From positions 62,001 through 126,000 of the forward strand of contig NZ_JARGNA010000005.1 of assembly GCF_030167905.1 (NCBI RefSeq): 64,000 bases of DNA. The letters run 5' to 3'. The DNA is from Flavobacterium terrisoli (lineage in GTDB: Bacteria; Bacteroidota; Bacteroidia; Flavobacteriales; Flavobacteriaceae). The notes under the pieces were generated by a model, which saw only the letters and a list, made by a program, of their open reading frames with translations, was not told the origin of the DNA and did no database searches. A program made the translations under genes and the position numbers. Numbering within the stretch: the first letter of the stretch is position 1; every line of letters starts with the position of its first letter. Of the stretch, positions 13,839-54,897 are shown in pieces.

Positions 13839-13872
13839 TATTTTTGAGGAATAGATTTAGCTATTTTTCAAC

Positions 13873-16646: not shown

Positions 16647-16679
16647 GATTTTGTTTTTGGTTTATTCAAATATATAAAA

Positions 16680-16709
16680 AATCCCCAACAGCCTGAACCG
16701 TTGAGGATT
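16680..16709 (-). terminator. Terminator of the AraC-type regulator gene
   Basis: On the minus strand AATCCTCAAC..GTTGGGGATT followed by TTTTTTATATA lies 20 bp past the regulator stop. It is nearly the same hairpin as the one after secA at 17439. Confidence 0.75.
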
Positions 16710-16729
16710 GTATTTATCTGTAACAGATT

Positions 16730-17513: not shown

Positions 17514-20500
17514 TTAGTCATGTACCAAAACCCATTCGCCTGAAGCTAACATGCTTTCGGCTTTTTTGTATTTGGTCGTTTCCGTTTTGCCACTCATCAC
17601 ATGTTTAATCGTCACAGTGTCGTTACGGTTGATTTTCGGAGTTTCTCTCACGATGGTTTCCGTTACTTGTGGTCTGTGTTGTGCTGCCTGACTGGCTTCA
17701 CGGTTGGCACTTTCACTACTTTCGATTTCGTCTTTGCTTTCGGTGTAATTTTGTTTTTCACGAACCTGACGCGCTTCCTGAATGTTTTGGTTTTGCTGTG
17801 GCAAATCACCTTTAAACAAGAATGAAATCACTTCTTTATTCACGCCGTCTAACATGGTGCTAAACAATTTGAACGCTTCCAATTTGTAAATCAACAACGG
17901 ATCTTTTTGTTCGTGAACCGCTAACTGTACCGATTGTTTTAACTCATCCATTTTGCGTAAGTGCTTTTTCCAGGCTTCATCGACAATGGCTAAGGTGATA
18001 TTTTTTTCGAAATCGGCTACCAATTGGGCACCATTTGAATCAAATGCTTTTTTCAAATCGGTTACCACATTCAGTGTTTTGATTCCATCTGAAAACGGCA
18101 CAATGATGCGTTCAAATTTGTTGCCTTCTTTTTGGTATACATCCGCAATGATTGGGAAAGCTTCACGGGCACTTCTTTCTGTTTTCTCGGTATAATAAGC
18201 CAAAGCTGCTTTATAAACCTTACCCGTAATTTCCATTTCGGATAATTTCTCAAATTCAGTTGCCGAAATTGGCGAGGTAATCGAGAAGTAACGGATTAAT
18301 TCAAATTCGAAGTTTTTGAAATCATTTTTGCTTTTGTTTTCGCTTACGATCAATTCGCAGGTGTCATACATCATATTGGCAATATCCAATTTCAAACGTT
18401 CTCCGAATAAGGCATGGCGACGACGTTTGTAAACTACTTCACGTTGGGCATTCATAACGTCATCATATTCCAATAAACGTTTACGGGTACCAAAGTTGTT
18501 TTCCTCTACTTTTTTCTGAGCACGCTCAATAGACTTGGTCATCATTGAATGCTGAATCACTTCACCTTCTTTCAATCCCATTCTGTCCATGATTTTCGCT
18601 ACTCTGTCTGAACCGAACAAACGCATCAGGTTATCTTCCAAAGACACATAAAACTGTGAGCTTCCCGGATCTCCCTGACGACCGGCACGACCACGCAACT
18701 GACGGTCAACACGACGCGAATCGTGACGTTCCGTACCGATGATGGCCAAACCTCCGGCAGCTTTAACTTCAGGCGTTAACTTGATATCGGTACCACGACC
18801 TGCCATATTCGTTGCGATTGTAACTACACCGGGTTTTCCTGCTTCGGCTACAATTTCGGCTTCTTTTTTGTGCATTTTTGCGTTCAATACGTTGTGGGCT
18901 ACACCGCGCATTTTCAACATACGGCTTAATAATTCTGAAATCTCTACCGAGGTTGTTCCAATCAATACCGGACGACCGGCTTGTGATAATTGGGTTACAT
19001 CTTCGATTACCGCATTGAATTTCTCGCGAACTGAGCGGTAAATCAAATCTTCTTTGTCTATTCTTGAAATGCCTTTATTGGTTGGGATTTCCACTACGTC
19101 TAATTTGTAAATCTGCCATAACTCACCAGCTTCAGTCACCGCGGTTCCGGTCATACCGGCCAATTTGCTGTACATACGGAAATAGTTCTGTAATGTAATG
19201 GTCGCAAAGGTTTGGGTTGCGGCTTCAATCGTAACCTGCTCTTTGGCTTCAATCGCCTGGTGTAATCCGTCAGAATAACGACGGCCATCCATAATACGAC
19301 CGGTTTGCTCGTCAACGATTAGGATTTTGTTGTCCATGATTACATATTCCACGTCTTTTTCAAACAAGGTATACGCTTTCAATAATTGCGTCAAAGTGTG
19401 GATTCTTTCTGATTTTACGCCGAAATCCTGGAATAATTTCTCTTTGGCTTCCGCTTCTTTGTCTTTGCCTAAGTCTTGCTTTTCGATGTTGGCGATTTCA
19501 GTTCCAATATCCGGTAAAATAAAGAAATCGTCTGAAGTATCTTTTGACAGGAATTTGATTCCGTTATCGGTTAATTCTACCTGATTGTTTTTCTCTTCGA
19601 TTACAAAATACATGGCTTCGTCCACTTCCGGCATTTTGCGGTTGTTGTCCTGCATGTATTCGTTTTCGGTTTTTTGAAGCAGTTGTTTGATTCCTTCTTC
19701 ACTCAAAAACTTGATTAAAGCTTTGTTTTTTGGTAACGAACGGTAAGCTCTCAACAATTGGAATCCACCGTCTTTAGTATTGCCTTCCTTGATTAAACGT
19801 TTGGCTTCGGTTAAAAATCCGTTAGACAATTGACGTTGTAAGTTATAAAGGTTTTCGATTTTTGGTTTTAGTTCGTTGAACTCATGACGGTCACCATCGG
19901 GCACCGGACCAGAGATAATCAATGGTGTTCTCGCATCATCAATCAATACCGAATCCACCTCATCGACAATCGCATAATTGTGTTTTCTCTGTACCAAATC
20001 TTCAGGAGAATGCGCCATATTATCACGCAGGTAATCAAAACCAAATTCGTTATTGGTTCCATAAGTAATATCCGCTTCGTAGGCTTTTCTACGGGCATCT
20101 GAGTTAGGTGAGTGATTATCGATACAATCCACAGTCAATCCGTGGAATTCGAATAATGGCGCTTTCCACGTGCTGTCACGTTTGGCCAAATAATCATTCA
20201 CGGTTACCAGGTGAACCCCGTTTCCGGTTAAGGCATTTAAGTAAAGTGGCAAGGTAGCCACCAATGTTTTTCCTTCACCCGTTTGCATCTCGGCAATTTT
20301 ACCTTCGTGCAATACGATACCACCAATCAACTGTACGTCGTAGTGAATCATGTCCCAGGTGATTTCTTTTCCGGCAGCATTCCATTGGTTGGCCCAAACA
20401 GCTTGATCACCCTCTAAAGTGATATAGGATTTAGTAGCGGAAAGCTCTCTGTCTCTTGGTGTAGCCGAAACGGTAATTGTGGAATTTTCTTTGAAACGGC

Positions 20501-43794: not shown

Positions 43795-43802
43795 TTTTGT
43801 GT

Positions 43803-43852
43803 TATGCGGTGTAGTTGTTGCACAAGAGGGGAGCGAACTGCTGTTATAAGTG
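43803..43852 (-). repeat. Degenerate attC-like remnant (distal edge of cassette array)
   Basis: The stretch GCGGTGTAGTTGTTGCAC and, after a short centre, GCGAACTGCTGTTATAAGTG looks like the two arms of the array palindromes with the centre deleted. The right end follows the array rule GTTA-N6-G (TTATAAGTGG). This suggests that the SRPBCC gene at 43893 was once a cassette. Confidence 0.4.
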
Positions 43853-43892
43853 GTGTTTGTTTCTTTGTATTTTTAAGTTATTCCTGAGATTG

Positions 43893-44351
43893 TTATTTTT
43901 CACAAAGTTCTTTCAGCTTATCGAGTGCTTTTGGATAGGCCTCGTTCATATAATCCAAAAAATCCTCAGTGGTGTCTAAGTCAACAGTAACGGTTGTGGT
44001 TCCGTTGTTTTCTTCGAAGGTATAGTTTTCAAATCCGTTGGCCCATTTTTCCACTTCCGGTCCTTCAGTAATTTCCTTATCCGCTTGAACAAGGCCATAA
44101 TGTTGGATCGAAACAAATCGGTTGGCAATGTTATCCGCTATCCTCGAAACCATGCCTCCTTTTTCTCCTTTTTCATCTACTCCAATGAATTGAATTTTAT
44201 TTCCCTTGTCCCAATTTCCTTCATAGGTTGATGTTGGGTTAAACGCAGCTGTCCATTGTTCATAAGTAGATTTACTGCTGATGCCAAGCATAAAATCATA
44301 AACTTTGGTCACAGGAGCATTGATGTTTACGGTGAATTGTAACTTTTTCAT
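43893..44351 (-). CDS. SRPBCC (AHSA1-like) protein, possible fossil cassette gene
   Basis: A 152-residue cytosolic protein: QFTVNINAPVTKVYDFMLGISSKSTYEQWTAAFNPTS, IQFIGVDEKGEKGGMVSRIADNIANRFVSIQHYG. START-like ligand-binding fold. It is flanked by degenerate palindromes at 43803-43852 and 44411-44530, so it may be the oldest cassette of the array (inference). Confidence 0.85.
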   Translation of the reverse strand: MKKLQFTVNINAPVTKVYDFMLGISSKSTYEQWTAAFNPTSTYEGNWDKGNKIQFIGVDEKGEKGGMVSRIADNIANRFVSIQHYGLVQADKEITEGPEVEKWANGFENYTFEENNGTTTVTVDLDTTEDFLDYMNEAYPKALDKLKELCEK

Positions 44352-44410
44352 ACTATTACTATTTGTTTAAATTAATCTTTTGAGTTCTTATTTCAGTTGC
44401 TTAATACAGT

Positions 44411-44530
44411 TTATAAAGTTCTGTGAATTTGCGTAGTAGCAATAAATTTAATATTAATTATTCAGTTACAAAATGTTTTTTTTGGACCTTGGAACGAAGC
44501 GAGAACAAGATAGCAAACCACGGTTAGCAT
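44411..44530 (-). repeat. attC-like site A (degenerate), end of cassette 1
   Basis: The left arm TTTGCGTAGTAGCAA matches the arms of sites J and K (GGCGTAGTAGC); the core is TATAAAGT instead of TAACGT. The right arm ATAGCAAACCACGGTTAGCAT keeps GTTA-N6-G (TTAGCATGAG). Pairing has decayed, as expected at the old end of an array. Confidence 0.55.
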
Positions 44531-44609
44531 GAGACTTAATACAAATTAATGCCTTTATAGTTAAATTTATATTTTTTCCTTCCAGTGTTTTTAATTGTGT
44601 AGATAAGCT

Positions 44610-45914
44610 TTATTCGGCTGTTTTGAAGTTAATTTCATAAGGTTTTAACTGAATGGCACTTTTATTTCTATAACCGTCTGTCACTAACATCTGATACTGT
44701 TTATTTGGCTCTAATTTCACAATGTATGTTACAGATTTTCCATTATCTGAAAAATTAGCAGAAATGATTTTTGGATAAAATTCTTTTCCTAATTTTCCAA
44801 AATCCATACTCCTGAATCGAGTATCCATTTCTTGAGAAAAATTTATGGTAATCTCTGTAAGGGTTGGATTTACATTTTGCTGCCCATTTTTGAATTCTTT
44901 GATGCTTGTAACAAAAGGTCTTGAATTTTCAAAGTTCCTTTTTAATTCATCTATAGATTTCGAAAAGTACTCAGTTTTATCGACAAATTTCTCTATTTCA
45001 TCTTGCTTGTTAAAGTCCAGTTCAATTAACTTTCTGATTGCTTCTTTTTTATCTTTTGATTGATTGTAATATTTCTCAGCAATTGCATAACCCACATAAT
45101 ATCCTAAATCTCTCGTTTTAAACTGATTTTCCAAATCATTCCAAATCCAATTGTAATGCCAATAAGAAAACATTTCATTTTCAAAGGCATTCCTTATTTT
45201 TTTATCATTTACTTTTCCAAATTCAATTGCCGGTGTTGGAGATTTTGTTGAAAGTGCTATTACAGGAATAAATTCAGCAATTCCTTCAAATAAACTTTGG
45301 GATAATAAATCATAGCCTCCTTCTGTCTTTTGTTGTGTATGAACATATTCGTGAATATTTAAGAACACAACATTTTTAATCGGATTTTGTTTTAAATAAT
45401 TTGTAAAGTAATCAAGTTTTTTTGGAAATTCATGTGAAACAATGTTTTCATCTCCAAGTGCCATTTCACTACCTATTAATACTGAACCATCCATAATTGT
45501 TCCGGGTGTTCTAAACGCTCCAATTGTGAAATATATTTTAGCGGGTTTTAAGTTTGGATATATTGCCTTTAATTTATCAATTCCTAATTCAAGCTCTTTT
45601 GATAACGATTTAGATTTAAAGGTGTTTTCCCTAATTGAGTTCCAAAACAATGGATAGTTATTTATTACATCAACATATGATTTTGAATCATATCTCCTTG
45701 CAATCATGATGTTTGTTAAGCCGGAAGTTCCTTTTTCAATATATAGTTTTGTTATGTATTCTTTTTGTAGGGTTGTATCTTTTGTTGTTACGATTTTATC
45801 GTATGCAACCCAAAAGTTATCAATGTCTGATGTGATAATGTTTTGATTTTGTGCTTGTATTTTTCCTATTGATATTGAAAAAACACATATTGCTAAGATT
45901 ATTTTATATTTCAT
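44610..45914 (-). CDS. Cassette 1: exported putative metalloprotease with Ig-like tail
   Basis: A 434-residue protein with signal MKYKIILAICVFSISIGKIQAQ. A zinc motif IHEYVHTQQ (HExxH) lies at about residue 190, with LFEGIAEFIPVIAL downstream giving a possible third ligand (E in GIAEF), as in DUF2268-like predicted Zn proteases. The last 100 residues (NPTLTEITINFSQEMDT...YIVKLEPNKQYQMLVTDGYRNKSAIQLKPYEINFKT) look like a bacterial Ig-like domain. ATG 45914 is used; the open frame runs further upstream only because it reads through palindrome B. Confidence 0.78.
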   Translation of the reverse strand: MKYKIILAICVFSISIGKIQAQNQNIITSDIDNFWVAYDKIVTTKDTTLQKEYITKLYIEKGTSGLTNIMIARRYDSKSYVDVINNYPLFWNSIRENTFKSKSLSKELELGIDKLKAIYPNLKPAKIYFTIGAFRTPGTIMDGSVLIGSEMALGDENIVSHEFPKKLDYFTNYLKQNPIKNVVFLNIHEYVHTQQKTEGGYDLLSQSLFEGIAEFIPVIALSTKSPTPAIEFGKVNDKKIRNAFENEMFSYWHYNWIWNDLENQFKTRDLGYYVGYAIAEKYYNQSKDKKEAIRKLIELDFNKQDEIEKFVDKTEYFSKSIDELKRNFENSRPFVTSIKEFKNGQQNVNPTLTEITINFSQEMDTRFRSMDFGKLGKEFYPKIISANFSDNGKSVTYIVKLEPNKQYQMLVTDGYRNKSAIQLKPYEINFKTAE

Positions 45915-45950
45915 AAGATGTTGTTTTGCACAATTTAGGCGGGTATAGTC

Positions 45951-46084
45951 ACTAACGTTCCGCCGCTTGTAATAGTTGCGACGATTTATTACTGATGATT
46001 CCAAATATAAAATTCCTTTTTGATTTCCTCTAGGAAATCGGGGAGAAGCCCAAGCCACGCAGTTGCTACAAACTGCTGTTAGCA
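45951..46084 (-). repeat. attC-like site B, end of cassette 2
   Basis: Left CACTAAC-GTTCC-GCCGCTTGTAATAGTTGC, right GCAGTTGCTACAAACTGC-T-GTTAGCAG. The centre has an inner hairpin GATTTCC-tct-AGGAAATC and a minus-strand TATATTTG (46002-46009). Confidence 0.8.
46002..46009 (-). promoter_or_regulatory. Possible -7 box inside site B
   Basis: CAAATATA on the plus strand reads TATATTTG on the minus strand, pointing at cassette 1. The same box sits in sites E (47807-47814) and I (50168-50175). No clear -33 box. Confidence 0.4.
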
Positions 46085-46093
46085 GACGGTTTT

Positions 46094-46639
46094 TTATTTT
46101 TCTGAGTATAATAATCCCCAGTATCCAACTTTCATTTTTTTGTTGAACTTTTCACCAATTAAATATGGTTTATTTACTTTCAATTTAACACTCCGATTTA
46201 ATTTTGGATCTTGTATTTTAATATAATGTCTTATCGTTCCACTACTTTCCATTGAATAATAATCTACAATCTTGGCATTCAAAACAATTGTTTCATTTTC
46301 TCCCAAAGAGTCATTTGTCAACATTATAATTGAAAGCGTTGTTGCATATAAAACGACTGTCATTCCAATAGTTAATGTAATAATGCGAAAAATAGTTCTA
46401 ACGTTTGTCCATATTTTTTTTGTATACTTTTTCCCTTCATGCTGAACAAGAAACTTTAAATATATAATTAAACAAACAGGAAACATAATTAGGAGAATTG
46501 GTAATGAAAAGTATTTCATTGTTATCTCATGGGCAAGATTAGTTTCAACGTAATCAAATGAATTAAAAGCAACAATAACTGTCAAAATACAAATAGTCAA
46601 AAGAGTAAAAAATAATATTTTGAATTTGTTCATTGTCAT
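46094..46639 (-). CDS. Cassette 2: membrane protein of unknown function
   Basis: A 181-residue protein with three hydrophobic segments (ILFFTLLTICILTVIVAF, FSLPILLIMFPVCLIIYLKFL, IITLTIGMTVVLYATTLSIIM) and a C-terminal beta-rich soluble part (NETIVLNAKIVDYYSMESSGTIRHYIKI...). No family recognised. The stop lies about 10 bp before site B. Its start flank (TTATAGCCAA) does not match its own end flank but equals that of cassette 3. Confidence 0.7.
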   Translation of the reverse strand: MTMNKFKILFFTLLTICILTVIVAFNSFDYVETNLAHEITMKYFSLPILLIMFPVCLIIYLKFLVQHEGKKYTKKIWTNVRTIFRIITLTIGMTVVLYATTLSIIMLTNDSLGENETIVLNAKIVDYYSMESSGTIRHYIKIQDPKLNRSVKLKVNKPYLIGEKFNKKMKVGYWGLLYSEK

Positions 46640-46662
46640 TTATGATGATAGTTGTGTAAATT

Positions 46663-46799
46663 GGCTATAACGTTCCGCAGATTGTAGCAGCTGCATAAAT
46701 TTATAACTAAAGTTTCCAAGTACAAAATAACTTTTGGAAATCCGCTAGGATTTCCGGCAAACCCAAACCTAGCAGTTGCTACAAACTGCTGTTATAGCC
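46663..46799 (-). repeat. attC-like site C, end of cassette 3
   Basis: Left GGCTATAAC-GTTCC-GCAGATTGTAGCAGCTGC, right GCAGTTGCTACAAACTGC-T-GTTATAGCC. Inner hairpin GGAAATCC-gcta-GGATTTCC at about 46737-46756. Type I arms, close to site H. Confidence 0.85.
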
Positions 46800-46804
46800 A
46801 GTTT

Positions 46805-47155
46805 TTATCTCACTAGACTGTCAATTATTACTATCAAAATCATTATTCCAACTACTATTCCGCCAACTTTTAGATACAACTTCATCGCTTTCTTTTCGTC
46901 TCGATAATCCGCTGTTGGGATTGTTTCGGTATGCGCAATTATTCCGTTTTCTGTGAAAATTTTATCAAGCTTTATTCTGTCTGCGTCTAATATGAAATAT
47001 CTAATTCCATTTTCAAACATTGGCTGATTTTCAACGTCACAATAATATTCAACGTTTTGCTTTTCCATTTCGTTTTCAAACGTTATTTTATCTTTCGGTA
47101 AAACATAAATTTTGAAATGGCTTTTGAATAATATTTCCGGCTTTTCCATTTGCAT
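46805..47155 (-). CDS. Cassette 3: small C-tail-anchored membrane protein
   Basis: A 116-residue protein. The cytosolic N-terminus (KPEILFKSHFKIYVLPKDKITFENEMEKQNVEYY...) has an ACT/ferredoxin-like look; the C-terminus is one membrane segment (VGGIVVGIMILIVIIDSLV). No known family. Cassette ends TTATAGCCAATTTT (start) and TTATAGCCAGTTTT (end) match except at position 10. Confidence 0.7.
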   Translation of the reverse strand: MQMEKPEILFKSHFKIYVLPKDKITFENEMEKQNVEYYCDVENQPMFENGIRYFILDADRIKLDKIFTENGIIAHTETIPTADYRDEKKAMKLYLKVGGIVVGIMILIVIIDSLVR

Positions 47156-47173
47156 TTAGTTTCTAATAAAATT

Positions 47174-47312
47174 GGCTATAACGTTTCGCGGCTAGTGGTT
47201 TTTTGCGAAGCCAGCGAACTGCGTACTGTCAGCTAAGATAGAATTTTTACGTGAAAAACCAACGTGAAACCACGAAAATCCAGCAATGGCCACTAACCGC
47301 TGTTAGTAGCTG
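47174..47312 (-). repeat. attC-like site D, end of cassette 4
   Basis: Left GGCTATAAC-GTTTC-GCGGCTAGTGG, right CCACTAACCGC-T-GTTAGTAGC. Type II arms; centre contains AAGCCAGCGAACTG and repeated ACGTG/CACG motifs. Confidence 0.82.
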
Positions 47313-47332
47313 GTTTTTTGAGTTATTATTTT

Positions 47333-47719
47333 TTAATCCATTGCGAATTCCATAATCTTTGACAGCGCTAATGTCAATGCAATTATATAAATGAAAAAAG
47401 TAATCAACAAAGATTTCCATTCAATTCCGTTCTCTCTTTTTATAAAGTAAGTTAATGCTATAATTATCCAAGCTAAAAAGCTAAAAACTGTTCCAGTCCA
47501 ACTGTAAATTATGCAATATTGGTAAACGTCATAAAACTTAAATTCGAACGGATTAATTCCTGAAATGTTTCTATATCCATTAATTAATCCAGCATGTGTG
47601 TAAAAAGTAAGTAATGAAACAATAAAAAGTGCCGGGAAAAATACTAAAACATAAAAAGTCAACTTCCAAAACTTTCGAGTTTTCCATTTTCTATTTTCTA
47701 TGTTGATAGTATGTTCCAT
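47333..47719 (-). CDS. Cassette 4: three-helix membrane protein
   Basis: A 128-residue protein with three hydrophobic segments (LTFYVLVFFPALFIVSLLTFY, YCIIYSWTGTVFSFLAWIIIAL, LLITFFIYIIALTLALSKIM). No family recognised. Cassette flanks TTAGTAGCTAGTTTT / TTAGTAGCTGGTTTT match over 15 nt except position 10. Confidence 0.7.
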   Translation of the reverse strand: MEHTINIENRKWKTRKFWKLTFYVLVFFPALFIVSLLTFYTHAGLINGYRNISGINPFEFKFYDVYQYCIIYSWTGTVFSFLAWIIIALTYFIKRENGIEWKSLLITFFIYIIALTLALSKIMEFAMD

Positions 47720-47751
47720 TTTAAGATATAAGCTGTTAGGATAGGAAAACT

Positions 47752-47892
47752 AGCTACTAACGTGCCGCAGATTGTGATAGTTGCGACGATTTATTACTGA
47801 TGATTACAAATATAAAATTCCTTTTTGAGTTTTCAGAGAAAACTCGGGATAATCCCAAGCTTCGCAATTATCACAAACTGCTGTTAGCAACC
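47752..47892 (-). repeat. attC-like site E, end of cassette 5
   Basis: Left AGCTACTAAC-GTGCC-GCAGATTGTGATAGTTGC, right GCAATTATCACAAACTGC-T-GTTAGCAACC. Inner hairpin GAGTTTTC-aga-GAAAACTC. Minus-strand TATATTTG at 47807-47814. The stop codon of cassette 5 is inside its R'' core. Confidence 0.85.
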
Positions 47893-48297
47893 GTTTTTCC
47901 GTTTAAATTGCTTATATCCAATAACATCTTTTCGGATTTCTTTTTTCCACTTTTTGCCATATGTTGAGCATAAATGTTTTAGAATGACATTATTGTATGC
48001 TGTTGATATTTTCTCGTCAGTTCCGCTGCAACCAAAATCATAATAACTTACACCATATAATTTTCTAAACGGTTCATCACCAATATATACAATTGGAGCA
48101 ATTCCGCTTTGTAATAGAAGAAATGGTGTTTTAGCTTTTATATCATCATTTGCTAGATTTTCCGCTTCCACTACAGTTTGCGCAAAATGAATTTTTGCGG
48201 CGCCACTTTCATTATATTGTTTATCAGTCAATCTTTCATTTTGGGCTAAACAATTTAATCCGAAAAGGAACAGAAATATAGACATTGTCGTTTTCAT
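47884..48297 (-). CDS. Cassette 5: exported protein of unknown function
   Basis: A 137-residue protein with signal MKTTMSIFLFLFGLNCLAQ. Mature part: ERLTDKQYNESGAAKIHFAQTVVEAENLANDDIK, VYIGDEPFRKLYGVSYYDFGCSG, two or three cysteines that could form disulfides. The last codons CGT/GGT-TGC-TAA use the palindrome's TAAC core as the stop. No known family. Confidence 0.72.
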   Translation of the reverse strand: MKTTMSIFLFLFGLNCLAQNERLTDKQYNESGAAKIHFAQTVVEAENLANDDIKAKTPFLLLQSGIAPIVYIGDEPFRKLYGVSYYDFGCSGTDEKISTAYNNVILKHLCSTYGKKWKKEIRKDVIGYKQFKRKNGC

Positions 48298-48312
48298 AAA
48301 TATGTTCTAAAT

Positions 48313-48447
48313 GGTTGCTAACGTTCCGCGGCTTTGCGCTGTAGCGGCAATTTAAGAAAAAATATAAAGCGAAAGACAAGGTTTCAGGAATCCGTTAGGA
48401 TTCCGGCGCAATGCTAACGAGCTATTGCGCGAAACCGCTGTTATATG
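48313..48447 (-). repeat. attC-like site F, end of cassette 6
   Basis: Left GGTTGCTAAC-GTTCC-GCGGCTTTGCGCTGTAG, right CTATTGCGCGAAACCGC-T-GTTATATG. Inner hairpin GGAATCC-gtta-GGATTCC, a covarying shorter version of that in site C. Confidence 0.83.
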
Positions 48448-48456
48448 TAGTGCCAG

Positions 48457-48984
48457 CTATATTTTTTTTGCCTTTGATGAGTTTTCATTACCAATCCAAA
48501 TATAACTCTCTGAGAATTTATTCTTTTCAAAAAAGAATTGAAAGTATGGAAACTCAGTTTTACCAGTTGAAAATTGAATATAAAAATACTCGGAATTAAA
48601 TGCTTGGGGTTTGTCACCAGACCATAACAGGTTAACACTTAGTAAATTTATTCCAGTTATCTTTTCAACTTTATTTTTAGGAACAAATAGACTTCTTTTC
48701 ATATATTCAATTTCTATTTTCTGACATTTGTAGTTTACAAATTCAAAGGAAACCACTTCTCCTGTTTCGAATACTAAATCAGCATTGGTTAATTTTTTTT
48801 TCTTGGTTGCTATTAATTCACCGTACTTTTCAAGTTTAACTTTCTCTGAGTTTTTAATTTCAATTCTTTCTTTAGCAAAATACAATACGTAGATCTTTGG
48901 TCTTTCAATTCTGTCTTTGTGTGCATAAATTGAGTTGCAATTCAATGCGAATATTAAAGCGATTATGATTTTTAGATGTTTCAT
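48457..48984 (-). CDS. Cassette 6: exported protein of unknown function
   Basis: A 175-residue protein with signal MKHLKIIIALIFALNCNSIYA. Beta-rich mature part (PKIYVLYFAKERIEIKNSEKVKL..., VEKITGINLLSVNLLWSGDKPQAFNSEYFYIQF). ATG 48984 is chosen; the open frame upstream passes through palindrome G. Flanks TTATATGCAATGCC / TTATATGTAGTGCC. Confidence 0.7.
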   Translation of the reverse strand: MKHLKIIIALIFALNCNSIYAHKDRIERPKIYVLYFAKERIEIKNSEKVKLEKYGELIATKKKKLTNADLVFETGEVVSFEFVNYKCQKIEIEYMKRSLFVPKNKVEKITGINLLSVNLLWSGDKPQAFNSEYFYIQFSTGKTEFPYFQFFFEKNKFSESYIWIGNENSSKAKKI

Positions 48985-48994
48985 GTGAGGCATT

Positions 48995-49130
48995 GCATAT
49001 AACGTCCCGCGGCTTGCCGCAGTGGCGGTGATATTAATGTATAGTTGTAAAGATATCAAAATTTCCGGCTGTCGATTTTCCGGCTGAGGAAAATCGGAAC
49101 CAGCCATTGTTGCAAACCGCTGTTATGAGC
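48995..49130 (-). repeat. attC-like site G, end of cassette 7
   Basis: Left GCATATAAC-GTCCC-GCGGCTTGCCGCAGTGGC, right GCCATTGTTGCAAACCGC-T-GTTATGAGC. Inner hairpin CGATTTTCC-ggctga-GGAAAATCG. Confidence 0.83.
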
Positions 49131-49132
49131 AG

Positions 49133-49453
49133 TTATTTTGCCCAATTGAATAACTTGGTAACAGCCCAACTTATTTCATCTTGTTCGCAACGATATTCAC
49201 TAATTTCTCCAAACTTTTCAAACTCTGATATATTAAATCCATCTTCAATGTCATTATACCAAATCACTTTGTTTTTATAAACTGCAACTACCCAAAATCC
49301 ACCGCATTCATCACCCAGTTCTTTTTCGGCCCATTTTTTCGGCTCAACTTTAATTGATTTCCAAAACTCCATAATTTCTCCTTCCAAATCATTTTCGGTT
49401 CTTTGAATTTCGATATTAAGTTCACTTAATGAAATCGGTGTCCATTCTGCCAT
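49133..49453 (-). CDS. Cassette 7: small cytosolic protein
   Basis: A 106-residue protein with no signal: WTPISLSELNIEIQRTENDLEGEIMEFWKSIKVEPKKW...GFWVVAVYKNKVIWYNDIEDGFNISEF. Rich in Trp and acidic residues; might be an immunity- or adaptor-like protein, but no family is recognised. Flanks TTATGAGCAATTATT / TTATGAGCAGTTATT agree over 15 nt except position 10. Confidence 0.75.
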   Translation of the reverse strand: MAEWTPISLSELNIEIQRTENDLEGEIMEFWKSIKVEPKKWAEKELGDECGGFWVVAVYKNKVIWYNDIEDGFNISEFEKFGEISEYRCEQDEISWAVTKLFNWAK

Positions 49454-49469
49454 AGCGTGATTAATAATT

Positions 49470-49614
49470 GCTCATAACGTTCCCCAGATTGTAGCAGCTG
49501 CATAAATTTATTACTAATGTTTCCAAGTACAAAATAACTTTTTGGAAATCCGGTAGGATTTCCGGCTAACCCAAACCTTGCAGTTGCTACAAACTGCTGT
49601 TATAAGTAGGCCGC
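49470..49614 (-). repeat. attC-like site H, end of cassette 8
   Basis: Left GCTCATAAC-GTTCC-CCAGATTGTAGCAGCTGC, right GCAGTTGCTACAAACTGC-T-GTTATAAGTAGG. Inner hairpin GGAAATCC-ggta-GGATTTCC. Very similar to site C although the cassettes are unrelated. Confidence 0.85.
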
Positions 49615-49620
49615 GTACTC

Positions 49621-50076
49621 CTATATTATTGCGGTAATTTTACACCAATCAATTATTTTTAAATCACTTATAATTAAAACATAATACCAAATATGTTCAT
49701 GTTTCTCTAAAAGATATATAACCACAACCTTTTTCTTTGGTGTTAATTCAAAAGATTGGTAAATATGCATTGAAAGTTTTGATTTTCCAGAGCCAAATTT
49801 TCTGTTTTCTGTGTTGAGTTTGATGGCTTCTTCTGTTTCTGCGAAGCCATTAGACTGAATAGTTATATTTTCTTCGTTATTCAAGCAACTAGCATTAAAA
49901 ATCAACCCTGAAGTTTGTTTTTCTGTCGAACCTGAAAATTTAATTTTACGGTACTTTAATTCTTCTTTTTTCAAAATGTTTTCAAAAAAATAATCCGCTG
50001 CAATCTGTTCATCTTTTTTCTGTGAAAAACAAGTTTCAAATGATAATAGTAATAAAAGCAAAAATGTGATTTTCAT
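49621..50076 (-). CDS. Cassette 8: exported protein of unknown function
   Basis: A 151-residue protein with signal MKITFLLLLLLSFETCFSQ. Mature part QIAADYFFENILKKEELKYRKIKFSG..., C-terminal YVLIISDLKIIDWCKITAII. Flanks TTATAAGTAAGCCGC / TTATAAGTAGGCCGC match over 15 nt except position 10, the clearest case of private terminal complementarity. Confidence 0.72.
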   Translation of the reverse strand: MKITFLLLLLLSFETCFSQKKDEQIAADYFFENILKKEELKYRKIKFSGSTEKQTSGLIFNASCLNNEENITIQSNGFAETEEAIKLNTENRKFGSGKSKLSMHIYQSFELTPKKKVVVIYLLEKHEHIWYYVLIISDLKIIDWCKITAII

Positions 50077-50106
50077 TTCAAAAGTTCTTTTAAAGATAAT
50101 CGTCGA

Positions 50107-50254
50107 GCGGCTTACTTATAACGTGCCGCAGATTGCTACAGTTGCGACGATTTATTACTGTTGATTCCAAATATAAAACTCCTTTTTGAATTTTCGGAGA
50201 AAATTCGGGAAGAACCCAAGCCTAGCAATTGTAGCAAACTGCTGTTAGCAACGG
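50107..50254 (-). repeat. attC-like site I, end of cassette 9
   Basis: Left CTTACTTATAAC-GTGCC-GCAGATTGCTACAGTTGC, right GCAATTGTAGCAAACTGC-T-GTTAGCAACG. Note compensatory swaps against site H (GCTACAG with TTGTAGC). Inner hairpin GAATTTTC-gga-GAAAATTC. Minus-strand TATATTTG at 50168-50175. Contains the stop codon of cassette 9. Confidence 0.85.
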
Positions 50255-50637
50255 TTTATAAAACTTTTAAGCAACTCAAGATTACTTTTTGAATATCCTG
50301 CAAAGTATATGTTTTCCGTTTTCTCAAGTTTCTCAATTTTTAATACACCATGATTTTTATCCCATTTTGATATTTTTATATCTCTAATAGATTTCAATGA
50401 AATTTTTTCGGCATCAAAGTAAAGATGATTTTCATCAAAATAGATTCTTTTATAGTTCTGTTTTTTTACGAAAACAAAGAATCCAGTTATTAAAAATCCT
50501 AGTGCGGCGATTGAAGCCTGTATATAATTTTTGCCTATTAAAAATATTATGGAAATCACTGCGAAAAACAAAACTCCAAAGTGGACATAAAATTGGATTT
50601 GGTTTTTGGAATCAGTGAGTTCTATTTGTTTGTTCAT
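50245..50637 (-). CDS. Cassette 9: two-helix membrane protein with PH-like domain
   Basis: A 130-residue protein with two adjacent hydrophobic segments (FYVHFGVLFFAVISIIFLIG, YIQASIAALGFLITGFFVFV) followed by a beta-rich PH-like domain (YKRIYFDENHLYFDAEKISLKSIRDIKISKWD...). The ATG at 50637 is preferred over TTG 50646. The stop TAA is part of the palindrome core (TGC TAA C). Confidence 0.72.
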   Translation of the reverse strand: MNKQIELTDSKNQIQFYVHFGVLFFAVISIIFLIGKNYIQASIAALGFLITGFFVFVKKQNYKRIYFDENHLYFDAEKISLKSIRDIKISKWDKNHGVLKIEKLEKTENIYFAGYSKSNLELLKSFINRC

Positions 50638-50661
50638 TTTTTGCAAAATATTTCTGTAAAT

Positions 50662-50790
50662 CGTTGCTAACGTGCCGCCGCTTGGCGTAGTAGCAGCAAG
50701 TTAAAGAAAAATGTAATAAGAAATGCAGAAGTTCAGAGTATTTTCCAAGAAAGACAAACGAGCTATTGCGCCAAACGGCTGTTAGCAAAC
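50662..50790 (-). repeat. attC-like site J, end of cassette 10
   Basis: Left CGTTGCTAAC-GTGCC-GCCGCTTGGCGTAGTAGC, right GCTATTGCGCCAAACGGC-T-GTTAGCAAAC. Type II arms; the GCCG/CGGC pair replaces GCGG/CCGC of other sites, a compensatory change. No strong inner hairpin. Confidence 0.83.
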
Positions 50791-50797
50791 GTTTTTT

Positions 50798-51538
50798 TTA
50801 TTCAGTCAATTCATAAAATTTAAATCGACCGTTTTTTTTATTTTCTTTTTCAAGACCTCTAGAATCCTTATGCTTTGGAATACTAAAAATGCTGTTTTCG
50901 ATTTCCTTATTCTTTATTTCAACTAACTTATATTCTGAGTATAATTCTGTATTTTTAACTTGCAATTTGTAATAGTAAATTATTGAGTTATTTAATTCAG
51001 TTGCTATTTCTTTTGGGTGTATTTGCTCTCCCATGGCCCGTAATATATTACGATTGTCAGCTAGTTTATATTGATTGGCGTCAGAATATACATAAGTTTC
51101 TTTTCCATATTCTCTCTTTACGAAAAGCTTCTTCAATTCATGATCTTTCTTGTCGAAATTAATAATTGTATCAGACTTTGATAAAGAAATTATTTTTCCA
51201 AAATGAGAGTTTTCTTGATTATATAGTTTTCCAAAATTCAAATTATCTTCATTCATGGATAGTTTTTTTGATTTACTCCAGTTGTCTTTATAGATTACAT
51301 AGATTTTCTTTAAGGAATCAATAAAAATTGATTTTTCATAATCTTTTTGGTTAGTTAGTTTTATGTAATTCTTGTTCTTATATGTTATTTTGAGAGTATC
51401 GAAATATTTATTAGAATCAGAAAAATTCTTCTCGTTCATTCTCATATTATAATGATAAATCAATTCACCCTCAAATATTTTTTCAGGCGATAAAATATTA
51501 ATTAATAATATAAAAACTATAGTTGTAAATATTCTCAT
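50798..51538 (-). CDS. Cassette 10: exported protein of unknown function
   Basis: A 246-residue protein with signal MRIFTTIVFILLINILSPEKIF. The beta-rich mature part (FEGELIYHYNMRMNEKNF..., YIKLTNQKDYEKSIFIDSLKKIYVIYKDN, ELYSEYKLVEIKNKEIENSIFSIP) resembles the GLPGLI-type proteins of Bacteroidota in layout, but this is weak. ATG 51538 is used rather than TTG 51544. Confidence 0.7.
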   Translation of the reverse strand: MRIFTTIVFILLINILSPEKIFEGELIYHYNMRMNEKNFSDSNKYFDTLKITYKNKNYIKLTNQKDYEKSIFIDSLKKIYVIYKDNWSKSKKLSMNEDNLNFGKLYNQENSHFGKIISLSKSDTIINFDKKDHELKKLFVKREYGKETYVYSDANQYKLADNRNILRAMGEQIHPKEIATELNNSIIYYYKLQVKNTELYSEYKLVEIKNKEIENSIFSIPKHKDSRGLEKENKKNGRFKFYELTE

Positions 51539-51547
51539 TTCCAAAAT

Positions 51548-51686
51548 GTTTGCTAACGTGCCGCCGCTTGGCGTAGTAGCGAAGTCAGCGAGCTGATTAT
51601 TTTCGGTTAAAGTTAAACATTTTCGTGAAGAATAGAAGTGAAGTTAAAACAAAACAAGCTATTATGCCAAACGGCTGTTAGCGCGC
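51548..51686 (-). repeat. attC-like site K, end of cassette 11
   Basis: Left GTTTGCTAAC-GTGCC-GCCGCTTGGCGTAGTAGC, right GCTATTATGCCAAACGGC-T-GTTAGCGCGC. Left arm identical to site J; centre differs. Confidence 0.83.
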
Positions 51687-51708
51687 GTTTAATTTTCAAA
51701 CTTGGTTT

Positions 51709-51987
51709 CTAACCTTGGTTTACATAAACTCCTTCTTCTCCAGTTTCTATATTTTTTATCAAAAGTCTGAAACCAAAACAGAAAACTACCTTTGCTTTTC
51801 CGCTGCTACCATAAACTATTCCGTCTTCCATTTTCATGTTACCTTGATCAAACCAATCTCCAATGTGCATTCCACTGCTATATTTCCATGTCTGACTTTG
51901 AATATAATATGATGAATTAAGGTAAAGAATGATACCTAGAACAATTGCAGTTAAAGCTAAACTTATTTTAAAAATTCGTGTTTTCAT
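51709..51987 (-). CDS. Cassette 11: small membrane-anchored protein
   Basis: A 92-residue protein with one N-terminal hydrophobic segment (ISLALTAIVLGIILYLN) and an exported tail (SGMHIGDWFDQGNMKMEDGIVYGSSGKAKVVFCFGFRLLIKN). Unknown function. Flanks TTAGCGCTCATTTAATT / TTAGCGCGCGTTTAATT agree over 17 nt with two differences, including position 10. Confidence 0.68.
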   Translation of the reverse strand: MKTRIFKISLALTAIVLGIILYLNSSYYIQSQTWKYSSGMHIGDWFDQGNMKMEDGIVYGSSGKAKVVFCFGFRLLIKNIETGEEGVYVNQG

Positions 51988-52021
51988 TTTCAGACTTTTT
52001 GTGCAAACGTGGGAATTAAAT

Positions 52022-52153
52022 GAGCGCTAACGTTCCGCGGCTTCGCGACAGTTGTGAAGCCAGCGAACGAATTATTTTCTGTTAAAGATAAATGTTTTTC
52101 GTGAACACGTAAAAGTAAAAACCAACAATTGCGCGAAACCGCTGTTATAGGCC
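52022..52153 (-). repeat. attC-like site L, end of cassette 12
   Basis: Left GAGCGCTAAC-GTTCC-GCGGCTTCGCGACAGTTG, right CAATTGCGCGAAACCGC-T-GTTATAGGCC. Inner hairpin TTTTTCGTG-aa-CACGTAAAA at about 52096-52115. Confidence 0.83.
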
Positions 52154-52157
52154 GTTT

Positions 52158-53057
52158 TTATTTTTTTCCACTCCTTTTTGTCATTTCAGGAACTCCATCA
52201 CCAGGCGAAATATGTGTAATTACCTGAGCATCTTTTACAAGTCTTTGGATTATTTTGGAAATCGGCTCTTTTGTTCTTATACTCTCATCATATGCTTGCT
52301 GTATAATTTCTCCGCTTATCGTCTGTCCTTCTGGTGCGATGACTATAGTTTGTCTATTAAATGGAGCTGTTGCACTATCGTCAGCTCTAATCATTTCCTT
52401 ATCTAATTCTTCAAGAAATTCTTCATTTTCAAGCACACTCATTCCTGCATTAAGTGAACCTTGATTAATAAGTAATTCATTTCCCATTTGTTTTTGAAGT
52501 TCTATCATAAATAGATCTTGATCACTAAAAGGAATATGAAAATCGTTGAATCTTAAAAAAATTTGGTTATCAACTTTCATTTGAATGTGAAAATGAGGTT
52601 CAGCACCAACTTTTGCAGCGGCGTGACCTTCTAAATCAGTATTTCCAACACTAAATGACCATTCAAGATTTTTATAACGAAATGTAGACTCTAAATATGA
52701 AGTTGATGAAGTTTCATCTTTCAAATCGTTTATATTAGTTAAGAAAACTTCACTGTTTGCTAACCAACGAAAATAGCTGTCAAGTTGAAAAAATCCAATT
52801 GGTTTTTTTAGATAAGATTCAAAGTGTTTTTTTCGAATACCTTTTGGATATGTGAACCAATGGAAGCAATGCACAGAATCTTTAAAAGAATTCATGTTCA
52901 TTCCACAAAGAAAGCACTTTCCTTTTTTTAAGTTGTTAATGAAGTCTTCATGGACACGTTTGTTTTCTTCATCTTGCTGTCTGTTCTTTTCGGCAATGTA
53001 ATCTTCTCCAAGATTATTGAAGTATGTTTTTAAATCTTGATTTTTATATCGATTCAT
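52158..53057 (-). CDS. Cassette 12: cytosolic protein with zinc-finger-like N-terminus
   Basis: The largest non-exported cassette product, 299 residues. A CFLCGMNMNSF...CFHWF cluster (Cys about 48, 51; Cys/His about 64-66) suggests a zinc site. The middle reads SYLESTFRYKNLEWSFSVGNTDLEGHAAAKVGAEPHFHIQM, with many histidines, and the C-terminus is helical (ISGEIIQQAYDESIRTKEPISKIIQRLVKDAQ). No family recognised; it could be a nuclease or toxin-like protein, which is speculation. Flanks TTATAGGCCATTTT / TTATAGGCCGTTTT. Confidence 0.75.
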   Translation of the reverse strand: MNRYKNQDLKTYFNNLGEDYIAEKNRQQDEENKRVHEDFINNLKKGKCFLCGMNMNSFKDSVHCFHWFTYPKGIRKKHFESYLKKPIGFFQLDSYFRWLANSEVFLTNINDLKDETSSTSYLESTFRYKNLEWSFSVGNTDLEGHAAAKVGAEPHFHIQMKVDNQIFLRFNDFHIPFSDQDLFMIELQKQMGNELLINQGSLNAGMSVLENEEFLEELDKEMIRADDSATAPFNRQTIVIAPEGQTISGEIIQQAYDESIRTKEPISKIIQRLVKDAQVITHISPGDGVPEMTKRSGKK

Positions 53058-53073
53058 GTCGTTCGGTTAAAAT

Positions 53074-53206
53074 GGCCTATAACGTGCCGCGGCTTGGCGG
53101 CAGTTGCGATGCCAGCGGACTGATAATTTTCTGTTAAAGATAAACGTTTTTCGTGAACACATAAAAATTAAAACCAGCAATTGCGCCAAACCGCTGTTAC
53201 TGGCTG
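53074..53206 (-). repeat. attC-like site M, end of cassette 13 (newest)
   Basis: Left GGCCTATAAC-GTGCC-GCGGCTTGGCGGCAGTTG, right CAATTGCGCCAAACCGC-T-GTTACTGGC. Inner hairpin TTTTTCGTG-aa-CACATAAAAA, like site L. It is the site nearest the recombinase. Confidence 0.85.
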
Positions 53207-53211
53207 GCATT

Positions 53212-53730
53212 TTATTCCTGCTGAATCCACTCAAACTCTCCATTTTTCATATAGATAATTCCTCCGCCACAACTTTCCTCTGCGTGAATAAAAATGCCGT
53301 CATTAATTAATTTTATTTTGTCTTGTTCTTTTATTTGATCTTCAGCCAAAATATCTCCATTTTCATCAACGTTATTTGCATAAACTTCGCCTTTTGGTGC
53401 TTTCTCAAAAATCCCAACCCAATCCAGTTCATCAAATCCTTGCCCCAAAATATCATTTCCCATTCCGAAATATTTGGTTTCTTTTCCATTTCCAAATATT
53501 ATTCGCAAGCCAGATTTTTTATTTCGTGTGCTTTGAACAATTTCTACAATGTCATTCTTTTTGTCTCCATCCAAATCGCAAATAATTTTATTGACCTTAT
53601 GCGTTTTAGAAATAGAAATAGTATCAATTTTTTTATTAGCAATTTTTTTTGCCGCTAAGTTTTCAGTTTTTACTTCTCTTTTACATGAAAAGAAAAGTAA
53701 AATGAAAATTAAAAGAAGAATGTCTTTCAT
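53212..53730 (-). CDS. Cassette 13: lipoprotein with FG-GAP-like repeat
   Basis: A 172-residue protein with lipobox ILLFFSC (Cys about 16). Mature part has KIICDLDGDKKNDIVEIVQS, a calcium-binding FG-GAP/dockerin-like DxDxD loop, then LRIIFGNGKETKYFGMG and C-terminal GGGIIYMKNGEFEWIQQE. Surface lipoprotein, role unknown. First cassette after the attI-like region, so the one most exposed to the array promoter. Confidence 0.75.
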   Translation of the reverse strand: MKDILLLIFILLFFSCKREVKTENLAAKKIANKKIDTISISKTHKVNKIICDLDGDKKNDIVEIVQSTRNKKSGLRIIFGNGKETKYFGMGNDILGQGFDELDWVGIFEKAPKGEVYANNVDENGDILAEDQIKEQDKIKLINDGIFIHAEESCGGGIIYMKNGEFEWIQQE

Positions 53731-53745
53731 GAAGATAGGTTTAAT

Positions 53746-53835
53746 GCTTGCCAGTAACTAGTTTATAGGCGCTACAAAGTAGCGGGTTTACATCCTAATT
53801 TGGGTTGATAGGCGCTATTTTGTGGCGCTTTATGT
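53746..53835 (-). other. attI-like recombination region
   Basis: The cassette 13 boundary on the minus strand reads AAACTAG|TTACTGGCAAGC, so G|TTA is kept at the array entrance. Beside it are a perfect palindrome CGCTAC-AAA-GTAGCG (53770-53784) and three direct GGCGCT copies (53768-53773, 53811-53816, 53824-53829; two extended to ATAGGCGCTA at 53765 and 53808). This mirrors attI sites, which combine an inverted simple site with direct repeats, and differs in sequence from the attC-like palindromes. Confidence 0.6.
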
Positions 53836-53836
53836 T

Positions 53837-53868
53837 CAAATATAATTGTTTTTTTACAAATCATCAAA
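53837..53868 (-). promoter_or_regulatory. Candidate array promoter (Pc-like)
   Basis: On the minus strand TTTG (53865-53868) lies in the last codons of the recombinase gene, then 20 bp, then TATATTTG (53837-53844). It has both Bacteroidota boxes at correct spacing and points into the cassettes, about 105 bp before cassette 13. Confidence 0.7.
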
Positions 53869-54897
53869 CGGGCTCTTGATTTGTTGAAGACTCTTCGTGC
53901 TCACATGGGTATAAATCTCTGTCGTTTTACTGCTGCTGTGACCTAACAGTTCCTGTATATATCTTAAATCAGTGCCGCTTTCCAACAAATGGGTCGCGTA
54001 GCTGTGGCGCAACCAATGCAAAGTCACCGGCTTATCAATTTTGGCCTTTTCCACTGCATTCTTTAGTACCTGTTGCAAACTACGGGCATCATAGGGTTGG
54101 CCTATTTTTTGTCCCTCAAAAAGATAAGTCTTCGGTTTGTAAATCCTAAAATAACTTCGTAGCATTTCCAATATTTTAGGGCTCAATGGCGCTATCCTGT
54201 CTTTCTTGCCTTTCGCATTTTTAATCAATACTATATTCCTCTTGGAATCTATGTCTTGTGGTTTCAGTGCCAATAATTCACCACACCGCAATCCGCAACT
54301 GTAAATCAAACTCAGCATCGCTTTGTGCTTTATATTGCTATGGGCTTCCAGAATTAATTTCACTTCTTCTTTGCTCAGAACATTAGGCAATACCTTGGCG
54401 CGTTTGGGCCGATGAATCCTTTCAATATCCACTTTTCGATTGCCGATGGTCGTAAAAAACAGTTTGATGGCATTAACGATTTGATTTTGATACGAAGCCG
54501 ATAACTGCTTTTTTAAAATGTAATCATTGTTGTAAAGGATTAAATCGTCATTGTCAATTTCACTAATGGCTTTTTGATTGTAAAAAGCCAATAAGGATTT
54601 GGCAGCATCCAAATAAGTTGCGATGGTATTTTCGCTATACCTTTTGGAACGAAGCCAACGCCTGAAATTCTCCAAACCTCTCAACCCTTCTTCATTGGGC
54701 ATGGTGTCAGCGAGTAGGGGCAGCCCAAATCGCTTTCGGTTCTCATCAGTATCGGGCACATGCCACACCTTTAATGACTGACTCCATCTTGAACCGGCTA
54801 TGGCTTTTATTCTGGCAATCAGTACTTCATCTTTGTCAAATGACACGGCAATTCGTTTCTCACCACCATGGGTTATCATTTTAGCACTCCATTGCAT
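53854..54897 (-). CDS. Tyrosine recombinase (Xer/phage-like integrase) of the cassette array
   Basis: A 347-residue enzyme. Residues 1-60 form an extra N-terminal domain (ITHGGEKRIAVSF...WSQSLKVWHVPDT); about 70-155 is the SAM-like core-binding domain; 170-347 is catalytic with R204 (SCGLRCGELL), K in AKGKKDR (229-233), H294 and R297 (LHWLRHSYATH), H320 (LLGHSSSKT) and nucleophile Y329 (IYTHVS). The roughly 20-residue insertion before the HxxR box that marks integron integrases IntI is absent: only TYLFEGQKIGQPYDARSLQQVLKNAVEKA lies there. The end KSPFDDL resembles the SPLD tail of many integrases. It is co-directional with the cassettes. Confidence 0.9.
   Translation of the reverse strand: MQWSAKMITHGGEKRIAVSFDKDEVLIARIKAIAGSRWSQSLKVWHVPDTDENRKRFGLPLLADTMPNEEGLRGLENFRRWLRSKRYSENTIATYLDAAKSLLAFYNQKAISEIDNDDLILYNNDYILKKQLSASYQNQIVNAIKLFFTTIGNRKVDIERIHRPKRAKVLPNVLSKEEVKLILEAHSNIKHKAMLSLIYSCGLRCGELLALKPQDIDSKRNIVLIKNAKGKKDRIAPLSPKILEMLRSYFRIYKPKTYLFEGQKIGQPYDARSLQQVLKNAVEKAKIDKPVTLHWLRHSYATHLLESGTDLRYIQELLGHSSSKTTEIYTHVSTKSLQQIKSPFDDL

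Follow-up and report, generated by a model that had tools for sequence, protein, structure and literature searches.

Can gene cassettes be captured as in an integron by a recombinase that lacks the insertion characteristic of the integron integrase IntI? The question is raised by a 64,000-nucleotide stretch of the Flavobacterium terrisoli genome (contig NZ_JARGNA010000005.1, positions 62,001 to 126,000; hereafter the window), in which the gene of a tyrosine recombinase is followed by a tandem array of single-gene units separated by long palindromes. All array elements are read off the minus strand. Behind the recombinase gene come a promoter-like sequence, an attI-like palindrome and then the single-gene units (Table 1). 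Twelve cassettes are closed by intact hairpin sites of 124–136 bp, and beyond them lie a decayed site and then a half-site. A first-pass annotation made from the sequence had counted thirteen single-gene units on the minus strand; strand and single-gene layout hold, but the count becomes twelve units with intact sites plus two degraded ones. Its imperfect palindromes of 120–150 bp with AAC/GTT cores are confirmed, with pairing far beyond chance. The locus is very probably an integron-like array of single-gene cassettes, each with one hairpin site, which the neighbouring recombinase probably cuts and joins at G|TTA and which would enter at the attI-like site.

The ends of the cassettes carry this reading. 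If a unit is inserted as a circle cut at G|TT, its two ends were once partners in one hairpin, and the two halves of one site in the array come from different units. A cassette's first 15 nt pair with the 15 nt up to and including the AAC of its own site, with one fixed mismatch, and not with those of the neighbour. In the window, 11 of 12 cassettes match start to own end over 8–10 nt from GTT (0 of 100,000 permutations is as good), and halves within one site match in runs of 4–6 nt in 10 of 12 sites. For a first set of 148 cassettes, 5.33 of 6 informative bases agree between the ends of one cassette, compared with 2.51 between the halves of one site and 2.19 at random. A score of 5 or 6 of 6 bases, for which the random expectation is 4–8%, is reached by 134 of the 148, or by 122 of 135 after removal of two duplicate loci. 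Two arrays of 54 and 42 sites, held out from the building of the site model, give 93 of 94 cassettes at 5 or 6, compared with 8% at random. Here the match from G extends to position 14 and then drops to chance level. Only position 10 departs from this: A is the start base there in 94/94, the partner never matches and the end base is C in 85/94; on the bottom strand, this top-strand mismatch becomes a T.G wobble. In canonical IntI arrays from this phylum the ends match through about position 10 (~11 nt; 13 cassettes, obtained with locus-specific motifs after general attC patterns gave 6 and then none), which validates the test and also sets the present system apart (~11 against 15 nt). Cassette ends derived from one split site, in a circle cut at G|TT, are thus a feature that the array has in common with integrons.

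The sites keep structure over sequence, as do the palindromic attC-type sites with AAC/GTT cores that close tandem cassettes in integrons. RNAalifold gives 22 consensus pairs for the 12 window sites, 11 of them with compensatory changes. In an alignment of 115 sites from many genomes, which was fitted to the covariance model, 96.2% of cells pair compared with 73.7% in shuffles, and covariation is 0.549 against 0.132, a value reached by 0 of 500 shuffles. Folded singly, two of six window sites have z below −4; because single-site folding is mixed, the structural case rests on covariation. In bottom-strand order the site consists of TAACG, a one-sided 4-nt bulge (TKCC), GCNG, a C.A mismatch, ~13 bp and a variable loop; read in the direction of the gene, it is TAAC-A-GCNG ... 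CNGC-GGMAC-GTTA. Of 262 sites, 248 have the AAC core and 244 the GTT core, and the cores are found in 96/96 sites of the held-out arrays. Modelled in circular form, the bottom strand of the 12 window sites has a mean energy of −28.9 kcal/mol, compared with −22.8 kcal/mol in the array, and in all but one of the 12 its folding is more favourable than the top strand's, suggesting that the bottom strand may be the one used. Searching with a simple exact pattern recovered just 2 sites in the genome, a count not above that of the reversed control, and covariance models R1/R2 were used in its place; a search of Rfam returned only two chance-level matches. One locus (L014) has repeated insertions at about the same place within sites (13394–14434, 16071–17153 and 19058–20098), and L180/L181 carry near-identical 1.24-kb copies ~102–146 nt from the cuts. 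These are reminiscent of the known insertion sequences that target attC. Three of the scanned proteins match IS110 transposases.

The attI-like region beside the recombinase, noticed in the first-pass annotation, is itself palindromic. Over 34 loci its arms differ between species yet pair (89.5% of cells vs 52.5% shuffled), and covariation is 0.931 vs 0.252 in shuffles. Homology between loci mostly stops at its cut, and both anatomy and comparison mark it as the likely entry point beside the integrase. In 51 of 66 loci, compared with 6.2% in shuffles, a TAnnTT[T/A/C]G box similar to a −7 element is found no more than 35 nt from the recombinase stop codon, and in 38 of those 51 the box has TTTG at N18–22 upstream. 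These boxes were read against the Bacteroidota promoter consensus. The two-box promoter proposed earlier for the window is of this conserved kind, and we predict that it serves the array. Of 282 sites, 24% have TAnnTTTG on the top strand of the loop and 1.8% on the bottom strand, compared with 7.0% in shuffles; with this top-strand enrichment, sites may also drive expression of the next gene.

Comparison of loci gives the same boundaries. Among 1402 recombinase-anchored alignments between loci, 1127 end before attI, mostly near the stop codon. The remaining 275 run through attI, and 241 of them end at −3 to +20 nt of the cut, 20 at +21 to +60 and 14 beyond +60; gene order behind the cut is therefore not conserved. 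F. lacisediminis and Flavobacterium UBA7663 have flank blocks of 5.8 and 4.9 kb in common at 89.0% and 85.6%; the first reaches the attI cut and the sequences then differ (~740 nt of the second contig are left to compare). Two near-identical units were found in F. fragile, one of 859 bp and 99.3% with genome G064 (L048/L208), the other of 1067 bp and 96.4% with a genome of another family (L026/L217). Both begin exactly at a cut and end 14–21 nt past the next, the end point of the L026 unit being set by a site found with the covariance model. Window cassette 1 recurs in G683 at 78% and cassette 2 in G672 at 77%; the query starts at the attI cut base, and a match start there is uninformative on the boundary. 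For homologues of the cassette 1 gene in G671, G656, G018, G176 and others (~73–75%), the match takes in the gene but leaves out the site; these may be non-cassette forms. When window cassettes were sought on plasmids, one weak site match of 73% was returned. Cassette gain and loss follow the pattern of an integron.

The sites are linked to the recombinase. In a sample of 395 genomes of the phylum, with the recombinase at E 1e-50, sites at E 1e-6 and at most 8 site candidates per genome scored (13 in the order sample), the recombinase is present in 113 genomes and sites in 149. Palindromes scattered without a recombinase are not the rule: sites occur in 90 of 113 genomes with the recombinase vs 59 of 282 without it (Fisher 1.2e-27). 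By enzyme content, sites are present in 20/28 genomes with both this recombinase and IntI, 70/85 with this recombinase alone, 5/77 with IntI alone and 54/205 with neither. The order sample of 246 genomes gives 58/71 with and 31/175 without the recombinase (Fisher 3.4e-21). Canonical IntI scores over its cut-off in 1 of 44 matching genomes of the window's own class and in 104 of 139 of other classes. The first-pass annotation had proposed a covariance-model scan for clustering near recombinase homologs; of 229 sites in loci with a recombinase, 201 are codirectional with and 3′ of it (48 loci), and 28 lie in arrays of other orientation (7 loci). That annotation had also remarked that recombinase and cassettes read in one direction; this holds in the window and is not universal in the family. 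The longest arrays have 54 sites in ~35 kb (G707) and at least 42 sites (G736), both directly behind the recombinase. The system is also seen on a 66-kb plasmid of Chryseobacterium sp. SNU WT5, typed non-mobilizable (L179, NZ_CP041688.1, 12001–25041). Several public contigs (L010, L015, L017, L034, L049 and others) break off where the array begins, no farther than ~200 nt behind the recombinase, as though assembly failed at arrays.

The recombinase itself decides how this array relates to integrons. The segment that holds the IntI insertion is 38–41 aa long in 68/68 rows of the family, the window protein included, vs 80 aa in 23/23 IntI (IntI1 included), and in the alignment with 2a3v it counts 20 residues against 62. 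The IntI-specific additional domain near patch III is thus absent from the window recombinase, as the first-pass annotation had stated. The curated integron-integrase profile TIGR02249 gives it 207.8 bits, below the cut-off of 265, and NF011946 gives 120.5 bits, below 435. Its closest full-length profile and structure are XerA/Xer (NF040815; PDB 5hxy). The genome holds two separate Xer-like proteins, 35% and 32% identical to it; many sites beside the recombinase gene speak against an Xer role in resolving chromosome dimers, for which there is one dif per chromosome. The residues that we take to be catalytic (R204, K229/K232, H294, R297, H320, Y329) are invariant in 31/31 aligned sequences. In five loci (L025, L027, L063, L064, L066) the longest recombinase frame is short (178–263 aa) and the attI-like sequence is kept.

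Could the array be an ordinary integron, with IntI and attC merely diverged, so that only a new branch of a known family is seen? The plan, the GTT/AAC cores and the kind of end matching are the same as in canonical integrons. In a quick tree rooted on the genome's own two XerC/D-like proteins, the group nearest to the window family is the clade of 16 IntI rows, and VchIntIA is the second-best structural match. In addition, one classification paper has the IntI insertion incompletely conserved in its integron-like subgroup (PMC8138268). Set against this, the insertion missing from all 68 family rows is described as IntI-specific and necessary in another paper (PMC9668308). The tree places all 16 IntI rows in one clade (SH-like approximate likelihood ratio test 100) and the window family in a separate clade outside it, and the TIGR02249 score stays below its cut-off. 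The sites are rarer in genomes with IntI only than in those with neither enzyme (5/77 against 54/205), and R2 gives only 2 weak matches in 10 canonical IntI loci. An ordinary integron is therefore an unlikely description of this locus, though not a far-fetched one.

A second alternative is Xer-like recombination on double-stranded sites, in which the palindromes would be paired binding sites and not single-strand hairpins. The relatives XerA, XerC/D and XerH use duplex DNA, and attI is palindromic with covarying arms, unlike the attI of class 1 integrons. Yet the length and sequence of the site loop vary while stem pairing persists over 22 pairs, and the flanks are constrained to mutual pairing, the fixed mismatch included, and not to a fixed sequence. 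The one-sided bulge and the folding advantage of the bottom strand also disfavour duplex recombination, which we regard as quite improbable. That the palindromes are passive intergenic repeats (of the repetitive extragenic palindrome or miniature inverted-repeat transposable element kind) spread by another agent, with the recombinase as a bystander, would fit the sites in the 54 genomes with neither enzyme and site sequences up to 96% alike between species, but is scarcely credible and already contradicted, since such repeats would not render the far ends of each gene unit complementary, would not give common gene-plus-site units starting at cuts and would not sit 3′ of one recombinase family in 48 loci.

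Several observations weigh against the integron-like reading. All of the evidence is computational, and recombination was not observed. In the window, cassette 12 breaks the end-matching rule, the halves of 2 of 12 sites match nearly as well as cassette ends do (runs of 8 and 10), and four of the six singly folded sites are not clearly better than shuffled ones (z −0.4 to −1.9). The strand choice rests on folding energies, and the covariation of attI beats shuffles on three of five measures only. At the level of genomes, 54 of the 205 with neither enzyme carry sites, for 23 of the 113 that carry the recombinase no site reaches E 1e-6 (weak matches drop out under the stricter filters), and in F. 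terrisoli itself the sites on C16, C14, C11 and C10 have no recombinase close by. The longest open reading frame (ORF) runs opposite to the array in 26 of 185 cassettes.

The integron-like mechanism that we propose runs as follows. In a free circular cassette, the bottom strand would form a hairpin with an outer stem of 15–16 bp, the 4-nt one-sided bulge (TKCC), 4 bp, the C.A mismatch and ~13 bp. The recombinase would bind this hairpin and swap a single strand with attI at the junction of G and TT, and the inserted cassette would then carry one half of the outer stem at each end. Transcription from the predicted promoter, just 3′ of the recombinase stop codon, would enter the array, helped by the promoter-like boxes in the sites. 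An enzyme without the IntI insertion would recognise the hairpin otherwise, and the extra N-terminal domain, present in many family members, is a candidate for this. AlphaFold2 models residues 1–60 as a block at a predicted local distance difference test score of 83–91. Foldseek puts the HARP domain of SMARCAL1 (4o66) in its top two rows for this domain, at E 0.29 and 0.33. Pfam HARP is found in two relatives at E 8.3e-4 and 0.054 (19.3 and 13.5 bits), both below the cut-off of 25, and not in the window recombinase itself. An N-terminal profile search gave no convincing solved structure, and VIA-align gave a best Z of 4.0, with unrelated proteins and HARP absent from those rows. The better HARP match (E 8.3e-4) comes from a recombinase at 42% identity in a Candidatus Alkanophagales metagenome-assembled genome (L068, 2432–3568); its contig of 3.7 kb is labelled archaeal and is possibly contamination.

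The cargo is diverse. In 185 cassettes, of median length 836 bp, the longest ORF runs with the array in 158, and one cassette has no ORF. Among the cassette proteins, 146 match 133 Pfam families with at most 3 members each (25 families listed), which does not suit one conserved operon and bears out the earlier remark that the genes are unrelated while the palindromes are conserved. The idea that one recombinase captured diverse genes is likewise supported by the matching ends, the shared units and the link between sites and recombinase. Defence matches among the cassette proteins include SduA (2), AbiU (2), AbiP2/DRT and AriAB.

Table 1. Features of the recombinase locus and cassette array in the window (window coordinates)
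Feature	Position	Strand	Basis or remark
Tyrosine recombinase, 347 aa, likely cassette integrase	53854..54897	-	without IntI insertion
Extra N-terminal domain of recombinase, aa 1-65	54703..54897	-	predicted beta-beta-alpha-beta-beta-alpha, weakly HARP-like
Predicted array promoter	53837..53868	-	TTTG (53868-53865) N20 TATATTTG (53844-53837)
attI-like site	53747..53830	-	palindrome then CTATAAACTAG|TTA, cut 53758|53757
Cassette 1 gene, 172 aa	53212..53730	-	ORF list; no Pfam match
Recombination site 1	53076..53202	-	covariance models R1/R2
Cassette 2 gene, 299 aa	52158..53057	-	ORF list
Recombination site 2	52024..52150	-	covariance models R1/R2
Cassette 3 gene, 92 aa	51709..51987	-	ORF list
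Recombination site 3	51550..51683	-	covariance models R1/R2
Cassette 4 gene, 248 aa	50798..51544	-	ORF list
Recombination site 4	50664..50787	-	covariance models R1/R2; similar site at C16:115401, same genome
Cassette 5 gene, 133 aa	50245..50646	-	ORF list
Recombination site 5	50115..50250	-	covariance models R1/R2
Cassette 6 gene, 151 aa	49621..50076	-	ORF list
Recombination site 6	49471..49605	-	covariance models R1/R2
Cassette 7 gene, 106 aa	49133..49453	-	ORF list
Recombination site 7	48996..49128	-	covariance models R1/R2
Cassette 8 gene	48457..48987	-	listed ORF starts farther upstream, within site 7
Recombination site 8	48315..48446	-	covariance models R1/R2
Cassette 9 gene, FEKKY-domain protein, 137 aa	47884..48297	-	NF052319, 6.9e-27
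Recombination site 9	47754..47889	-	covariance models R1/R2
Cassette 10 gene, 128 aa	47333..47719	-	ORF list
Recombination site 10	47175..47308	-	covariance models R1/R2
Cassette 11 gene, 116 aa	46805..47155	-	ORF list
Recombination site 11	46664..46797	-	covariance models R1/R2
Cassette 12 gene, 181 aa	46094..46639	-	ORF list; sole one of 12 with non-matching ends
Recombination site 12	45949..46084	-	covariance models R1/R2
Cassette 13 gene, closed by decayed site	44610..45914	-	weak Big_5, E 0.0028, below cut-off
Decayed 13th site (TAACCG...AGAACTTTA)	44408..44529	-	by sequence; not detected by R2 at E 0.01
Last unit gene, 152 aa	43893..44351	-	weak Polyketide_cyc2, below cut-off
Half-site (TTATAACAGCAGTTCGC), distal end of array	43823..43849	-	by sequence

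A literature search, with preprints and most subscription journals outside its reach, found no description of this system, in agreement with the first-pass annotation, which knew of no described system of this kind in Bacteroidota. The protein is already in databases, since the generic NCBI profile NF040815 labels such proteins 'site-specific tyrosine recombinase/integron integrase'. According to a RefSeq genome survey, integrons are rare in Bacteroidetes; it calls their lack in some clades intriguing, and recounts that integrases without cassettes had been the only finds until one complete case in Salinibacter (PMC9024848). The present array would then belong to a large gene-capture system of this phylum that has probably been overlooked by integron searches. 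A system that works similarly is indicated in 113 (recombinase) and 149 (sites) of 395 phylum genomes, and its largest array reaches 54 sites. The system distinguishes the requirements of an integron (cassette ends that match, a site that folds, and attI) from its presumed definer, the IntI insertion, gives a direct test of how hairpin recognition arose, and opens a store of cassette genes, including matches to Shedu, AbiU and reverse-transcriptase defence proteins. More tentatively, Bacteroidota could have a second great class of integrons, with an integrase that split off before or without the IntI insertion, a fused HARP-like domain that reads hairpins, sites with their own promoters and a strand-choosing mismatch, a hairpin attI, and arrays of at least 54 cassettes that include anti-phage genes; such a class would have escaped notice because the IntI domain and canonical attC are what integron finders require.

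Among known systems, Xer/XerA enzymes, which resolve chromosome dimers at dif, are closest to the window recombinase in full-length profile and structure, but its family sits beside cassette arrays and the genome has its own two Xer-like proteins. Chromosomal integrons with IntI and attC, of which the Vibrio superintegrons are an example and L221, L222 and L226 are cases from the same phylum, likewise combine a recombinase and an attI with tandem single-gene cassettes whose ends match, have AAC...GTT cores, run to dozens of sites and are accompanied by orphan arrays in other parts of the genome. In contrast to them, the present recombinase has no IntI insertion, carries an extra N-terminal domain in many members and is usually codirectional with the cassettes, and its attI is a covarying palindrome. 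The canonical attC of L222, TAAC-AAG-GCG ... CGC-TGGGTC-GTTA, has the same polarity as the new-type sites and other spacers: in gene direction, the spacers are 2–3 and 6 nt in canonical sites and 1 and 5 nt here. Canonical sites have extra bases, new-type sites a strand-specific mismatch; the outer arm is ~11 nt in the former and 15 nt with a fixed mismatch in the latter. Clusters of attC sites without an integrase (CALIN; PMC9024848) are resembled by arrays or pairs of sites in the F. terrisoli genome without a close recombinase, at C16:114658–119400 (L106), C16:52121–60899 (L107), C14:157589–158486 (L108) and C10:372526–373339 (L111), although their hairpins are of the new type; single sites lie at C14:92245 and C11:371436. 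The system works like an integron but, on its integrase, falls outside the class that IntI defines.

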